A stretch of DNA of 64,000 bases. Origin: Aureococcus anophagefferens (lineage: Eukaryota > Sar > Pelagophyceae > Pelagomonadales > Pelagomonadaceae). Where the stretch lies: positions 1,102,603 to 1,166,602 of the forward strand of contig NW_008705568.1 of the NCBI RefSeq assembly GCF_000186865.1, read 5' to 3'. The notes below the pieces were generated by a model, which saw nothing but the letters and a program-made list of their open reading frames with translations, made no database searches and was not told the DNA's origin. The translations under genes and the position numbers were made by a program. Positions 44,233 through 50,228 of the stretch are shown in pieces. Position 1 is the first letter of the stretch. Each line of letters begins with the position of its first letter.

Positions 44233-45774
44233 ATGAGCGACGGCGACAAGCTCGTCGAGATGTCGGTGTCCGTGAATGGCGAGACAACAAACCCGATGGC
44301 CTCGTCGGCCTACGATTCGCTCCGCCAGGACTCGCCGCGGCCCGGCAACCGCGCGCCGTCCACCGGCGAGGCCGGCGCGGCCGACGACGCGTGGCAGAGC
44401 GTGTCGCGGACCTTCTTCTTCAGCGTCATCGCCGTCATGAACCAGGTGACCTTCGGCTACGACGTCGGCGCCGTGTCCCAGTGCCTCGTGCCCATCCAGA
44501 AGACGTTCCACCTGACGACGTTGGAAGTGGGCGCGGTGACGTCGGCGCTGAACTACTTCGCGGCGGGCGGCGCGCTCGTCGTGAGCGGGTTGCTCCTGGA
44601 CCGCATCGGCCGGCGGGGGTCTTTGCTGGTGGCCGCGGGGCTGCTGATTCTAGGCGGCTGCGTCGTCGGCGGCGCCTGGAGCTTCGAGGCGCTCGTCGCG
44701 GGCCGCTTCGTGCAGGGTCTCGGCGTGGGCGCGTCCTGGGCGTCGTCGGGCATTTATGTGACGGAGATCGCGCCGAGCCACAAGCGCGGCGCGCTCGTGT
44801 CGCTGGTCGACGTGTCCATTAACCTGGGCATCGTCGTCGGATACGTGCTCGCGTACGTCATCGATTCCGCGTCGATCGGCCGCGCGTTCGGCGTCGCGCC
44901 CTGGCGCGTCGCCATGGGCGTGAGCGTCGTGCCGCCGCTATTATTCGTGGTCTGCGCGCCGTTCCTGCCCGAGTCGCCGCGGTGGCTGCTGGCGCGGCGG
45001 CGGGACGACGAGGCGCGCGTCGCCGTGCGGAAGCTGAGAAGAAGGGGCGCGCCGGAGGCCACCGTCTCCGACGCCTTCGACGCCCTGCGGCGGCAGCGCG
45101 ACGCGCACGCCGCGGGCGACGACGTCGTCGAGGGCACGTGGGCCGGCGCCGCGGCGTCGAAGGAGGGGAAGTACGCCGCGTTATTGGGCGTCGCGCAGCA
45201 GGCGACGGGCACGGAGGCCATCCTCTACTTCGCGCCGACGGTGCTGCCGAAGCACAACCCCTTCGACGCCTTCCTGGGCAACGTGGGCATCGGGCTGGCC
45301 AAGTTCGGCGGGGAAGTGGTGGCGTCGTACCTCAGCGACAGCCCGCGGCTCGGCCGCCGCGCGATGATGGTCGGCGGCAACGTCGGCGTCACGCTCGGTT
45401 TATTGGCCTTCGGCGTCCTCGTGCGCGGGCCCCCGGGCCACACGGCGGCGTTGATTGTGGCGCTGTCGCTCGTCATGCTCTCGTTCTCGCTGGGACCGGG
45501 CCCGTTCACGACGGTCTTCGTCAACGAGGTCGTCCCGACGCGCAACCGGGCCAAGTCGAGCGCGCTGTCCTGCTTCCTGAACCGCATCACGTCGGCCTGC
45601 GTCGCCCTGTCCTTCCTGCCCCTGTCCCAGGCGTGGGGCGCGTCCGCGGTCTTCTTCTCCTACGCGGCCGTCGCCGCGGCCTGCACGGGCCTCTACGCGG
45701 CGACGCTGCCGGACACGCTCGGCAAGTCCCTGGAGCAGATCGGCGCCCAGGCGGGCGAGGCGGGGCTCGTATAG
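44233..45774 (+). CDS. MFS sugar-porter-family transporter 1
   Basis: 513 residues with about 12 transmembrane helices after a 60-residue cytosolic N-terminus. Sugar-porter landmarks: FGYDVGAVSQCLVPIQ (helix 1), LLLDRIGRRGSLL (loop 2-3), GRFVQGLGVGASW, PESPRWLLARRR (end of helix 6 region), GVAQQATGTEAILYFAPTV (helix 7), and the shortened second-half loop SPRLGRRAMM. It likely moves sugars or polyols across the plasma membrane or an organelle membrane; the substrate cannot be read. ATG 44233. No introns. A second MFS gene lies 2.9 kb downstream, with the histone-fold gene between them. Confidence 0.9.
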   Translation: MSDGDKLVEMSVSVNGETTNPMASSAYDSLRQDSPRPGNRAPSTGEAGAADDAWQSVSRTFFFSVIAVMNQVTFGYDVGAVSQCLVPIQKTFHLTTLEVGAVTSALNYFAAGGALVVSGLLLDRIGRRGSLLVAAGLLILGGCVVGGAWSFEALVAGRFVQGLGVGASWASSGIYVTEIAPSHKRGALVSLVDVSINLGIVVGYVLAYVIDSASIGRAFGVAPWRVAMGVSVVPPLLFVVCAPFLPESPRWLLARRRDDEARVAVRKLRRRGAPEATVSDAFDALRRQRDAHAAGDDVVEGTWAGAAASKEGKYAALLGVAQQATGTEAILYFAPTVLPKHNPFDAFLGNVGIGLAKFGGEVVASYLSDSPRLGRRAMMVGGNVGVTLGLLAFGVLVRGPPGHTAALIVALSLVMLSFSLGPGPFTTVFVNEVVPTRNRAKSSALSCFLNRITSACVALSFLPLSQAWGASAVFFSYAAVAAACTGLYAATLPDTLGKSLEQIGAQAGEAGLV

Positions 45775-46035
45775 TTCTCTGCGAGGTTACGAGGTCGCGG
45801 AGCGCGATGTCTGCGCGGACGACCGCGACCGCGCGCATTCTTAATGCTGTTGATGCCGCGATGCTGCAGCTCCCGCGGCCGTCCGGCCGCGGCCTCGGGC
45901 TGGGAATCGTCCCAGTGCCTCGCCTCGCGCCTCGACGCGCGCGCGCGTCCTTGCGTCGGCCCCCGTCGAGCCACACGAGTCGTCCGCGCGAGCGCGCGTC
46001 ACGTCGAGCGCCCGTGCGACCGCGGAGGATCGGAC

Positions 46036-48231
46036 ATGGCGGCCGCGGCCCCCCAAGTTCCCTCAAACACGATTGTCCTTATGCGGAGGCAGAGAAGCGC
46101 AAGAATGCCTCATGCCGAGAGAGTGGATCGCCTGCAAGCAGTACTCATGGGCCGCGCCCAGCTGGCAGGTTCTTTCCCCGCGATCAACAGCCGGGCTTTC
46201 GACGAACTGCTCGTCGGCGCCTGCGGCGTGCAGCGATGGTCGCAAGTTCTGAATCGGCGACTGGATCCGGACACACTCGCGCTCGTCGAGTCCTACGTCC
46301 GGCCGCGCATCGCGCCCCACGCGGCGGCGATGTTGAGATCGGCCGCCGAGGACTTTTTGATCCGCCTCTTCCAGGGCGCGAATACGGTGGCCATCGGTCG
46401 CGGCTCCCGGTGCGTCTGGGCTCTCGACGTCGAGGATGCTCTGTTTCTTTCCGGCGACGACCGCATCGCGGGCGTGCGACGGCCTGCAGCGACGGCCTGC
46501 GCGTGCGCCGGGACCGTGGAGGCGGCAGTTCCACGGCGTGCGGCGCGCGCGCCCGGAAGCCTGCCCGAGTCCAGTCGGTATCCTGAAGCCGGCCGGGCTC
46601 CATCTGTGACGTTCCGCGAGGAGTCGGGATGGTGCGACGTGGCAGCCGACGGAACAGCCTACATCAAATCCATTCGTACGTCGTTGCGCTGGATCGCGCT
46701 CCGCGGGGGCGCGGCGTACGTGACGCCTGACGCGTTCGACACCGCCTGTTCCGCCATGGTCGGCTTCCTCCGTACCGCGCTCGCGTGTGCGCGCGGCGAC
46801 TCAACGCCTCTGCTGCGTGATCTCTACGAGGCGGACGCGACACTTGCCACGCTTCGGGCGCTCGTCTATGCTCACGGGCGCTTGGACTCAAACGACGCAT
46901 CGGTCGAAGACAAGTCCGCATCTGACGACTCAGAGGACGATGAGAACGACTGCTTGGCCAAGTACGCGTGGGTCGAAGGCGCACTCTCCAATTACTTCAA
47001 GGCATTCGGTAGTCTGACGACGGAGGCCGTGGGAGGCGCGCTGCAATACCTGGGGGCCAGTGTCGCCGGGCAGCACCTCTGTCCCAAAGAACTTGGTGCC
47101 GATATCAAGCATGAGTATGGATCGGATGTGCTCGATTTGATACGTATGGGGGAATTGCCCATCGAAAACTATTTGAATGTTCCCGGTGGTGAGAAACTTA
47201 TTTTTGGCGATGGCGACTGCGACAAAGAATTGCTGAAATTGGACGGTGCAGACGTTGACCCGCGAACGGTGGTTGGCGAACGTCGATGCTGCGCGCTCGC
47301 TACCCACTGCCCGATCTGCGGGACATGTCGAGTCTTGCGCATCGTCGAATATGGTTCAGTTCAGTGCACACCGAAGAGCAGGCTCGTCGATCGTATCCTC
47401 GCGGTGCGGACCCCACGCAGCCAGGAAGAGTTCGTCGACGCGATGACGCGGGCCGAAGCCGCCGGCCGCTGGGACGGCGTCCACGTGCTCGATCTCGGCG
47501 AGGCCGACTCTAACCTGGCGAGCATCGCCTTGTTACCCGAGAACTTGAACACCTTTTCAAAGCCGCCGGTGCAGTCGTCGCGGGCCCAGGTCAATCGCTT
47601 CATAGGCTCGGTCAATCGCTTCGTCGAAAAAATGGCACGTCACTCTGGCATCGCAGCTTGGCATCCGGAGGTTGAAAGATTCGTCCAGTTGAGGATGCAA
47701 CACTCAATCTTTGAACTTGTCGATTTGGCGAACGTGTTTCGAGACCACGACGAGGGAACCACTGCCACGGCTGCCGTTCAATGGGACCCGCGGCCACTCC
47801 CACTCACTTATGTCGCCCGTGCCATGGTATCGCTTCTCGAGGATAGCGTCCGCCACTGCCACGCTGTGCCCCTTCTATGGTTCCTCAGTGAGGTGCGGGT
47901 AGTCTTACACGCAGCCGAAACGGGCATGACGCCCTCTCCGAACCTCGAACAGTTTGACCCTCTCGCGGATGACTTAGTACAGCGATATCTCCTACTCCAT
48001 ATCGCCTACCTCTTTCATCGTGCGCGACGTATCTGCCCCGAGACGATCTTTGGACCCACTTTGACGCCATACGTCGTCAATGTTGTCAGTGGACTCTTCG
48101 GCTCGCTACCCATGGAGGCCTTCACCCTCGACATGCACCAAAAGACGAGGTATCAGGCTTTTACCAGCACCATGATCGCGAGGAGGGTCGCGAGGAGCGC
48201 TAGCACCGCCGACCCGGCGCCGTCTAGCTAG
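46036..48231 (+). CDS. multi-histone-fold protein: H3-like then H4-like, possibly H2A- and H2B-like
   Basis: 731 residues. Residues 94-145 (APHAAAMLRSAAEDFLIRLF, then NTVAI, then DVEDALFLSG) align with the H3 alpha-2/alpha-3 core. Residues 210-280 contain SLRWIALRGGAAYVTPDAF and MVGFLRTAL, which align without gaps with the H4 alpha-1/L1/alpha-2 region (AIRRLARRGGVKRISG...VFLENVI). Weaker: 329-392 like H2A (AVGGALQYLGAS; LDLIRMGEL; PGGEKLI) and 528-600 like H2B (VEKM...GIAAW...SIFELVDLA). A Cys cluster CCALATHCPICGTC lies at 418-431. Base composition is clearly less GC-rich than in the neighbours, suggesting transfer, perhaps from a large DNA virus. ATG 46036 is chosen; 45844 is an alternative that adds 64 unlikely residues. 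Function: DNA packaging or nucleosome mimic is inferred only. Confidence 0.68.
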   Translation: MAAAAPQVPSNTIVLMRRQRSARMPHAERVDRLQAVLMGRAQLAGSFPAINSRAFDELLVGACGVQRWSQVLNRRLDPDTLALVESYVRPRIAPHAAAMLRSAAEDFLIRLFQGANTVAIGRGSRCVWALDVEDALFLSGDDRIAGVRRPAATACACAGTVEAAVPRRAARAPGSLPESSRYPEAGRAPSVTFREESGWCDVAADGTAYIKSIRTSLRWIALRGGAAYVTPDAFDTACSAMVGFLRTALACARGDSTPLLRDLYEADATLATLRALVYAHGRLDSNDASVEDKSASDDSEDDENDCLAKYAWVEGALSNYFKAFGSLTTEAVGGALQYLGASVAGQHLCPKELGADIKHEYGSDVLDLIRMGELPIENYLNVPGGEKLIFGDGDCDKELLKLDGADVDPRTVVGERRCCALATHCPICGTCRVLRIVEYGSVQCTPKSRLVDRILAVRTPRSQEEFVDAMTRAEAAGRWDGVHVLDLGEADSNLASIALLPENLNTFSKPPVQSSRAQVNRFIGSVNRFVEKMARHSGIAAWHPEVERFVQLRMQHSIFELVDLANVFRDHDEGTTATAAVQWDPRPLPLTYVARAMVSLLEDSVRHCHAVPLLWFLSEVRVVLHAAETGMTPSPNLEQFDPLADDLVQRYLLLHIAYLFHRARRICPETIFGPTLTPYVVNVVSGLFGSLPMEAFTLDMHQKTRYQAFTSTMIARRVARSASTADPAPSS

Positions 48232-48653
48232 TCCCCGAACTTAAGCTCGAGCGCCTGCTCGACGCAGCGCATGCCGAGCTCGTTCCGCGTCTCCGTGTCC
48301 AGCGCGAGCTCGCCCGCGTCCGCGGCGGGCTGGCTCGAGGTCGACCTGGACGACGCCGTCGATTACGCGCGTCGCGTGGACGACGGCGCGGCCCGGCCCG
48401 CCGCCGAAGGCGCTCACGCACTCGCCCGACACCGTGTCGTAGACGTACGAGTGCAGGCACGTGGAGCGCAATGCTGAAGTGGTCCTTGAAGCGATCGCGA
48501 AACATTTTTGCCGCAGGCAGCATGGTGACCTATTGAGCACTGCTGCCGCGACGTACGCGTCGGCGTCGCCCGTGAGGTGCGGGAGCTGCTCGTCCAGCGA
48601 GCGCTTCTCCTCGACGGCGCTCGCAGCGAGCGCCGATCGACGAGGCCCATCGA
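48228..48653 (-). pseudogene. broken gene, unidentified
   Basis: Fragments of protein-like sequence lie in different minus-strand frames: SAVEEKRSLDEQLPHLTGDADAYVAAAVLN, then AKMFRDRFKDHFSIALH, then LHSYVYDTVSGECVSAFGGGPG...VIDGVVQVDLEP, then ADAGELALDTETRNELGMRC...ELKFGD and TAG. At least two frame changes are needed. Its stop shares the CTAG of the histone-fold gene's stop. Short introns could explain part of this. Function unknown; the middle part resembles several small enzymes only loosely. Confidence 0.45.
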
Positions 48654-48668: not shown

Positions 48669-50228
48669 ATGGAGGAGATCAGCCTGCGCGACGAGCCCGA
48701 CGCGCGCGCGCGAGCCAAGGCGCAGTCCCGCGCGGAGTGGCGCGTGCTCTGCGCCGCCGGGTGCTTCGTGGGCATCGGCGGCTTCGCCTGGGGCCTCATG
48801 CTCGGCGCGGTCTCCGGCGCGCTCTCCGGCGCGGCGAAAGCCTTCGACCTCTCCGCGCGGGAGACGGGGCTCGTCGTCGCGCTCATGGGGCCCGGCGAGC
48901 TCGTGGGCAGCGCCGCGGGCGGCGTCGTCGGCGACGCGCTCGGCCGCCGCGCCGCCCTCGTCGTCGCGGCCGCGCTCGTCGTGGTCGGGTCGCTCGCGGC
49001 GGCCGCCGCGCCGACGCTGAACGCGCTGCTGGCCGCGCGCGTCGTCTGCGGCGTCGGCGCCGGCGCGTCCTACGTCGCGCAGCTCGCCTGGGCGTCGGAG
49101 CTCGCGCCGAAGCACCGCGTCGGCGGCCTGACGACGGTCTTCGAGCTGAGCATCAGTCTGGGCTACGTCGCGACGTTCGCGGCGTTCGCGGCGGAGCTCG
49201 TGGACTGGCGCGGCCTCTTCGCGCTGCCCGCGGGCCCCGCGGCGTTTCAGCTGCTGCTCGTGGTCTCGAAGGTCGCGCCGGAGAGCCCGCGGTGGCTCGC
49301 GACGGCGCGGGGCGAGGACGCGGCGAAGGCGGAACTCGCGAACTGCTACGCGCGCTTCGGCGGCGACGGCGCCGCCGCGCCCGTCGACGACATCGCGTCC
49401 CTGCTCAAGGAGGACGCGCTCAGGGACCGGTCGTCGCTGCGGGCGGACCTGCACCGCTGGCGCTGGCCGAGCGGCGTTTTTGTTGGTTTGACGTTCCTCA
49501 CGTTTTTCTCCGGGGGCTTCAACCTCCGGCTCTACGTCGTCGCGGTCTACCGCGCGGCGGGGCTCGGCGACGCGAGCGCGCGGCGCATGACGCTGGCCCT
49601 GGGCCTCGTCAAGTTCGCGACGACGCTGGCGATGATCCTGAAGATCGACGGCCTCGCGCGGCGGCCGCTCCTTTTGGGGTCGCTCGCGGCGACGGTGGTC
49701 CTCGCGGCGGCGCTCGCGGCGATCTTCGGGACGGACCCCGACGGCGCGGGGCCCGTGGTCGTCGTCGCGTGCCTGCTCTACACGGCCGCGTTCCAGGTGG
49801 GCTTCGGCACGCTGAATTTTTTGCTCCTCGGCGAGGTCTTTCCCCCGCGGCTCAAGGGCCGCCTCGTCGCGCTCCAGCAGCTGCCCGCGGCGGCCTTCAA
49901 GTTCGCGTCGCAGTACGCCTTCGCGCTCGCGCTCGCGGAGGACGGCCTCGGGGGGCTCTTCGGCGCTCACGCGGTCGTCGCGGCGCTGGGCCTCGCGTTC
50001 AACGCGTTGGCGTTCCCGGAGACGCGGGGCAAGTCGCCGGAGGCGGTCCGCGCGGACTTCGAGGCCATGCCCCTCGCGGCGTGCTGCGGGCGCCGGGCGC
50101 CGCCGCCGGGGGACGTCGAGCTCCGGGGCGCGTCCTTCTCCGCGTCCGACGAGGAGGAGGACGACGCCACGCTCCTCGCGGTGGACAACCCCATCCGGGC
50201 CGACGCGGGGGAGGAAAGCGCGGCCTAA
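48669..50228 (+). CDS. MFS sugar-porter-family transporter 2
   Basis: 519 residues, about 12 helices. Landmarks: GFAWGLMLGAVSGALSGAAKAF (helix 1), GGVVGDALGRRAALV (loop 2-3), ARVVCGVGAGASY, APESPRWLATARGEDAAKAEL (after helix 6), GVFVGLTFLTFFSGGFNLRLYVVAVYRAAG (helix 7), NFLLLGEVFPPRLKGR (loop 10-11) and FPETRGKSPE at the end of helix 12. The last gives a textbook sugar-porter PET motif. The C-terminus is acidic/Ser-rich. It is only moderately similar to the transporter at 44233, so not a recent tandem copy. Its stop is 10 bp from the convergent PH-domain gene. Confidence 0.9.
   Translation: MEEISLRDEPDARARAKAQSRAEWRVLCAAGCFVGIGGFAWGLMLGAVSGALSGAAKAFDLSARETGLVVALMGPGELVGSAAGGVVGDALGRRAALVVAAALVVVGSLAAAAAPTLNALLAARVVCGVGAGASYVAQLAWASELAPKHRVGGLTTVFELSISLGYVATFAAFAAELVDWRGLFALPAGPAAFQLLLVVSKVAPESPRWLATARGEDAAKAELANCYARFGGDGAAAPVDDIASLLKEDALRDRSSLRADLHRWRWPSGVFVGLTFLTFFSGGFNLRLYVVAVYRAAGLGDASARRMTLALGLVKFATTLAMILKIDGLARRPLLLGSLAATVVLAAALAAIFGTDPDGAGPVVVVACLLYTAAFQVGFGTLNFLLLGEVFPPRLKGRLVALQQLPAAAFKFASQYAFALALAEDGLGGLFGAHAVVAALGLAFNALAFPETRGKSPEAVRADFEAMPLAACCGRRAPPPGDVELRGASFSASDEEEDDATLLAVDNPIRADAGEESAA

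Follow-up and report, generated by a model that had tools for sequence, protein, structure and literature searches.

The window analysed here, a stretch of 64,000 nucleotides (nt) from contig NW_008705568.1 of Aureococcus anophagefferens, contains a gene whose 731-amino acid (aa) product carries an H3-like histone fold near its N-terminus, followed in tandem by what structure models support as a second, H4-like fold. The protein is acidic as a whole, and an acidic stretch precedes residues 326-342, which we read, from helix positions and the ranges of structural matches, as loop 2 and α3 of the H4-like fold, residues 346-415 being read as a linker. The interpretation that we favour, with about even confidence, is that of an acidic protein whose core is an H3-H4-like histone pseudodimer formed within one chain, and which acts in chromatin or transcription as a scaffold or in a chaperone-like manner; a second pair of histone folds in its C-terminal half is possible. 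The gene had been placed exactly by the original prediction, made from the DNA sequence alone, and a public protein (P0002) has equal length (731 aa), an identical start and 99% identity to the window protein.

The first fold is H3-like by sequence. Residues 91-140 align without gaps to residues 83-132 of the H3 encoded in the same genome (15 of 50 identical), bearing out the H3 core originally placed at residues 94-145, and identity to H3 across the 10 alignment rows that cover this core ranges from 11 to 17 of the 50 residues. The histone signal depends on the inclusion of relatives, because single-sequence searches with the window protein were weak in Pfam (Histone, E 0.15) or retrieved no histone from PDB. 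A profile of the three paralogous proteins of the genome drew 57 matches from PDB at E <= 10 (best 0.022), comprising four thioredoxins and 53 histones, all of them H3, CENP-A or Cnp1 except for one labelled merely 'Histone domain-containing protein'. With a fold-1 profile of seven sequences, 169 PDB matches at E <= 1 were obtained (best 3.1e-5), and the best 60 of these 169 were all histones, 59 labelled H3 or CENP-A. The alignment runs from α1 to α3 (profile positions 22-95 of 105, about residues 67-140), as for core H3 and CENP-A, so that fold 1 shows the significant match over α1-α3 expected of the histone fold superfamily. Direct hhalign comparison of fold 1 with the genome's H3 scored 34.2 (probability 77.7%), the maximum over 120 shuffled H3 sequences being 23.4. 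In Pfam, 5 of the 13 proteins in alignment A8 had a Histone match at E <= 10, the best being P0009 (E 7.7e-5, 23.4 bits, below the Pfam cut-off of 26.4); as a scale, two other histone-fold open reading frames (ORFs) of the genome score 3.8e-5 and 4.1e-5.

The second fold is supported mainly by structure. Two low-confidence models, of the window protein and of its relative P0004 (31% identical, their agreement resting on shared input), both match double-histone-fold chains best, with Foldseek E values above 0.001, over about residues 44-345 and 40-361, respectively. Helices α1 and α2 are present in the models at residues 207-252, where H4 had been predicted at about 216-252. The H2A proposed at residues 329-392 was not recovered, since both models place there a short strand and a helix (329-338; 346-355 in P0004) which complete the second fold. 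Melbournevirus 7n8n_A was among the structural matches of both models, and comparison with viral predicted structures retrieved viral histone-like proteins including a Medusavirus H3-H4 fusion, amid many unrelated rows and all with E above 0.05. By sequence, the H4 signal of fold 2 is faint: its hhalign score against H4 was weak (15.8, probability 1.4%, 18 columns, with 1 of 120 shuffles equally good), its peak in a sliding hhalign analysis (15.4, H4) fell within the range of shuffled sequences (maximum 19.0), and PDB profile searches with this segment found no histone. The best non-histone PDB match of the segment was a designed helical repeat (E 0.017).

The chemistry of the protein is that of neither an ordinary histone nor a viral fusion. 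The isoelectric point (pI) is 4.41-5.99 and the net charge -10 to -38 in all 14 proteins compared (P0001-P0014; the first two are almost the same protein, and fold 1 is absent from P0008, P0012 and P0013 and mostly absent from P0014). Charge is unevenly spread in the window protein, amounting to +5 over residues 1-45, between -1 and +2 in each of the folds, -8 in the acidic insert of fold 2 and -9 in the linker 346-415, versus +6 for the core of the H3 that the genome encodes. All 14 rows of alignment A2 have, ahead of the third helix of fold 2, a net-acidic stretch of 42-74 residues, and it lies in loop 2, which in H4 normally contacts DNA. Among the H3 positions that contact DNA (R116, T118, K115 and R83), the equivalents of R116 and T118 are replaced in all 10 rows covering fold 1 and that of K115 in 9, the R83 equivalent being retained in 7; residue 122 is Arg in every one of the 7 rows of alignment A4. 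As in H3 and CENP-A, the D123 equivalent is kept (11 of 11 rows covering it); unlike in these, the equivalent of H113, the residue that pairs H3 with H3', is retained in only 6 of 10 rows and is Gly in the window protein, whose 45-residue N-terminus is basic and not recognisably an H3 tail. The family therefore departs from nucleosomal histones, which are basic proteins with conserved loop DNA contacts.

Given the near-neutral charge of the folds, the replacement of several H3 DNA contacts and the acidic loop at the place where H4 touches DNA, the protein would not be expected to wrap DNA as a nucleosome does. The two N-terminal folds may instead be packed together intramolecularly, like those of Methanopyrus HMk or Spt3, and the protein could act as a scaffold docking onto histone-fold partners or histone-binding proteins, the acidic loop serving as a DNA mimic or a histone-chaperone-like tract. 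The missing histone-type positive charge makes a chromatin or transcription scaffold more probable than a packaging histone, and the acidic insert, together with the MYND finger found in one paralog, renders a scaffold or chaperone-like role the likeliest.

In the C-terminal half, residues C425, P426, C428 and G429 of a CPxCG beta hairpin are invariant in all 14 rows of the alignment, the low-confidence model of the window protein placing the hairpin strands at 416-424 and 431-440; the Cys cluster noted earlier between the halves of the protein is found here as CPICGTC (residues 425-431). The same model shows two further sets of helix, long helix and helix (block means of the predicted local distance difference test 28-58), and the P0004 model is less tidy, with helices at 481-490, 508-529 and 540-553 and at 574-582, 603-611, 621-644 and 662-678; the structural match rows of both models barely bear on this half. 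Segments 3 and 4 were chosen by eye before hhalign testing. When the four segments were compared with the four core histones (16 comparisons), the top histone per segment was H3, H4, H2A and H3, and none of 120 shuffles reached the scores of segment 3 with H2A (19.3; shuffle maximum 17.2) or segment 4 with H3 (22.0; shuffle maximum 15.7). In the sliding analysis (40 overlapping hhalign windows), fold 1 peaked at 35.0 (H3), segment 3 at 19.9 (H2A) and 19.0 (H4) and segment 4 at 20.3 (H3), and windows between residues 229 and 527 stayed at 12.7 or below for all four core histones; in the null distribution, built from 32 shuffled sequences (1,280 non-independent comparisons), the 99th percentile was 15.1. 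For segments 3 and 4, neither Pfam nor the PDB profile searches returned a histone, and the best non-histone PDB match of segment 3 was a chain named hypothetical p60 katanin (E 0.021). We consider it an even question whether folds 3 and 4 are both histone folds. The H2B predicted at residues 528-600 does lie inside the possible third fold, where the best histone match is H2A. An H2B identity was rejected for the possible fourth fold, which had not been anticipated, as H2B scored 11.4 there, inside the sliding-window shuffle range, versus 22.0 for H3. The all-against-all hhalign comparison for internal repeats gave no usable match, the one high score, between segments 3 and 4, being an artefact of a shared boundary stretch, and segments 1 and 4 gave 16.2 over just 9 columns.

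The predicted order H3-H4-H2A-H2B thus holds for H3 followed by H4; it is unproven for H2A and H2B, and any H2A would start some 190 residues later than predicted. Likewise, there is support for a cellular gene that encodes an H3-like and an H4-like fold in tandem, and the string of all four core histones does not follow, because folds 3 and 4 derive from low-confidence helices and hhalign scores of 19-22 over 22-27 columns (probability 3.8% for segment 3 and 7.5% for segment 4), fold 4 being nearer H3 than H2B. It is rather improbable, in our estimate, that the cell encodes a chain of four folds resembling core histones (H3, H4, H2A-like and one more) which assembles into a DNA-free mimic of the nucleosome core, in which the acidic loop would replace DNA, so as to keep histone chaperones and remodellers occupied or to regulate them. 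The checks suggested with the original prediction had a mixed outcome: profile searches matched a histone in fold 1 and, in PDB, in none of segments 2-4, structure prediction favoured double-histone-fold chains at low confidence, and no homologue emerged from scans of viral contigs, a weak negative as explained below.

Table 1 Coordinates of the histone-fold gene, its parts and its two paralogs (the paralogs lie on other contigs)
Feature	Coordinates	Strand	Residues	Remarks
Histone-fold protein gene	46036..48231	+		Open frame, 731 codons plus stop, intron not needed
Fold 1, H3-like	46171..46473	+	46-146	Modelled helices 78-88, 94-121, 129-139
Small Cys cluster after fold 1	46498..46530	+		CSCAxC in several relatives, CAC in window protein (alignment A2)
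Fold 2, H4-like partner	46654..47070	+	207-345	Modelled helices 207-223, 231-252, 329-338
Acidic insert in loop 2 of fold 2	46888..47013	+	285-326	11 Asp/Glu, 3 Lys/Arg
CPxCG beta hairpin, possible metal site	47281..47385	+	416-450	
Possible fold 3, H2A-like	47581..47856	+	516-607	Helices 516-536, 544-569, 590-607 (window protein model)
Possible fold 4, H3/H2B-like	47866..48105	+	611-690	Helices 611-629, 641-666, 678-687 (window protein model)
Paralog L002	298-2316			Third-position GC within 0.70-0.72
Paralog L009 (contig 14)	3725-6160			Third-position GC within 0.70-0.72

A protein search of the whole genome (49,050,692 bases, 86 contigs) recovered the window gene and two paralogs, 43% and 39% identical to the window protein over residues 36-285 and 34-275, and the same three genes were found when starting from one paralog. 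Both paralogs are open frames from ATG without inner stops (674 and 811 codons). Earlier protein-database searches had yielded the near-identical copy alone; with paralog residues 22-300 as query, 11 proteins were obtained at E <= 1, none worse than 4.8e-52, which with P0002 gives 12 relatives, a lower bound because each search scored only about 8,000 candidates. As no weaker matches lay below these, the family is apparently small and narrow in distribution. Scans of viral contigs with family alignments A1, A2 and A5 (two peptide patterns each) found no viral relative, a weak negative because viral histones are known, yet the H4 and H2A of the genome itself, used as queries in the same way, likewise gave no confirmed match. 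In Pfam searches over alignment A8 (13 members) and single members, MYND alone exceeded the cut-off and Histone came next; a stray DUF982 match (E 0.0069) occurred in a single member. The MYND zinc finger of the L009 paralog is inserted between possible folds 3 and 4, and relative P0014 also has one.

Our literature searches, which covered sources in part, brought up no report that we recognised as this family. The available text of one review describes fused histones as absent, as a rule, from current eukaryotes (PMC10919886), and the cellular double-histone-fold proteins tabulated in the available part of a 2026 review include none named as algal (PMC13088155). Compared with such cellular proteins (Methanopyrus HMk, Spt3, the Sos H domain and ABTB2), fold 1 is here recognisably H3 by sequence, fold 2 has an acidic insert, and there is a further half with the CPxCG hairpin and two possible folds. 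The predicted likeness to viral fused histones (Marseilleviridae doublets and Nucleocytoviricota quadruplets) holds in architecture, 7n8n_A being among the matches, and fails in chemistry, because the family is acidic and carries its acidic insert in the loop that brings H4 into contact with DNA. The window protein also differs from these viral proteins in its long Cys- and acid-rich linkers and in belonging to a cellular genome which encodes normal H3, H4, H2A and H2B as well. Its H3-like fold comes first, unlike in the Marseillevirus doublets, named H4-H3 and H2B-H2A in the accessible text of PMC11222145.

Other explanations must be considered. The histone folds could be a protein-protein module outside chromatin, as in Sos, whose histone folds without DNA-binding electrostatics (PMC13088155, as far as its accessible text goes) are paralleled by the near-neutral folds described here. 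No signalling domain was found in Pfam scans of the family proteins, where only MYND passed the cut-off, followed by Histone. MYND fingers, such as those of the paralog and P0014, point to transcription, and we regard a role outside chromatin as unlikely. Somewhat less likely still is descent from a viral or other foreign gene of histone repeats, of which a domesticated remnant survives that is now fast-evolving or weakly constrained. Third-position GC is 0.70-0.72 in all three family genes, versus 0.95 and 0.97 in the two sugar-transporter genes of the major facilitator superfamily that enclose the window copy on the same strand (44233-45774 and 48669-50228), 0.85-0.98 in the larger ORFs picked beside the paralogs, and at least 0.85 in 25 of the 33 window ORFs that were picked mechanically, the remaining eight possibly including spurious frames. 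The atypical composition that the three genes share hints at a common foreign origin or at relaxed selection. Low third-position GC may, however, also reflect weak expression or have other causes, the invariant residues across the family argue for constraint, and the viral-contig scans offered a weak negative. This explanation concerns origin and can be compatible with the pseudodimer scaffold that we favour.

A true histone quadruplet, with four core-histone folds dimerising into a nucleosome-like particle around DNA, is improbable to a greater degree. It would account for the two additional helix sets in the window protein model and for the coincidence of the sliding hhalign peaks with the four segments, and viral quadruplets, four core histones in series, do form nucleosome-like structures in Escherichia coli according to the available text of PMC11222145. 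Here, however, all 14 proteins are acidic, several DNA contacts are lost, the H4 loop 2 holds an acidic insert and fold 4 is not H2B-like; H3 is clear and H4 weak, the third and fourth folds being H2A-like and H3-like by hhalign only. Moreover, the same text reports that no virus combined a quadruplet with other histones, an observed viral trait and no formal definition of the quadruplet type, from which this genome departs with its ordinary core histones. Finally, a coincidental likeness between an alpha-helical protein and histones, which the poor single-sequence searches and the lack of histones in PDB profile searches of folds 2-4 might suggest, is very hard to reconcile with the purely histone composition of the best 60 of 169 fold-1 matches, with the score of fold 1 against H3 well above its shuffles and with the agreement, on shared input, of the two models.

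Several further observations concern the locus and the genome. Upstream, the frame stays open (45844-46035) as far as an in-frame ATG at 45844, which would give 795 aa and makes a longer N-terminus possible; the public copy begins at 46036. A mobile element was rejected, as repeats around the gene were only short and imperfect and a DNA search of the genome gave no second copy. A 17-nt direct repeat (82% alike; 46004-46020 and 48247-48263) closely brackets the gene, probably by chance, and an inverted pair of 24 nt (75%) happens to have one arm on each side. Elsewhere in the genome, an HMG box (E 1.5e-20) and an NF-Y/archaeal-type histone fold (E 2.2e-9) occur together in one ORF at locus L014 (G000:C12:1311500-1313500), and an ORF at locus L013 (G000:C19:219000-221000) combines a BTB domain (E 3.1e-4) with a core-histone match (E 3.8e-5, under the Pfam cut-off), a layout that we take to be reminiscent of ABTB2.

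If the favoured reading of an acidic H3-H4-like pseudodimer is true, the existence of such a cell-encoded chain beside normal histones would mean that a eukaryote can retain histone fusions or give rise to them, and the family would provide a testable case of a histone pseudodimer serving something other than DNA wrapping.
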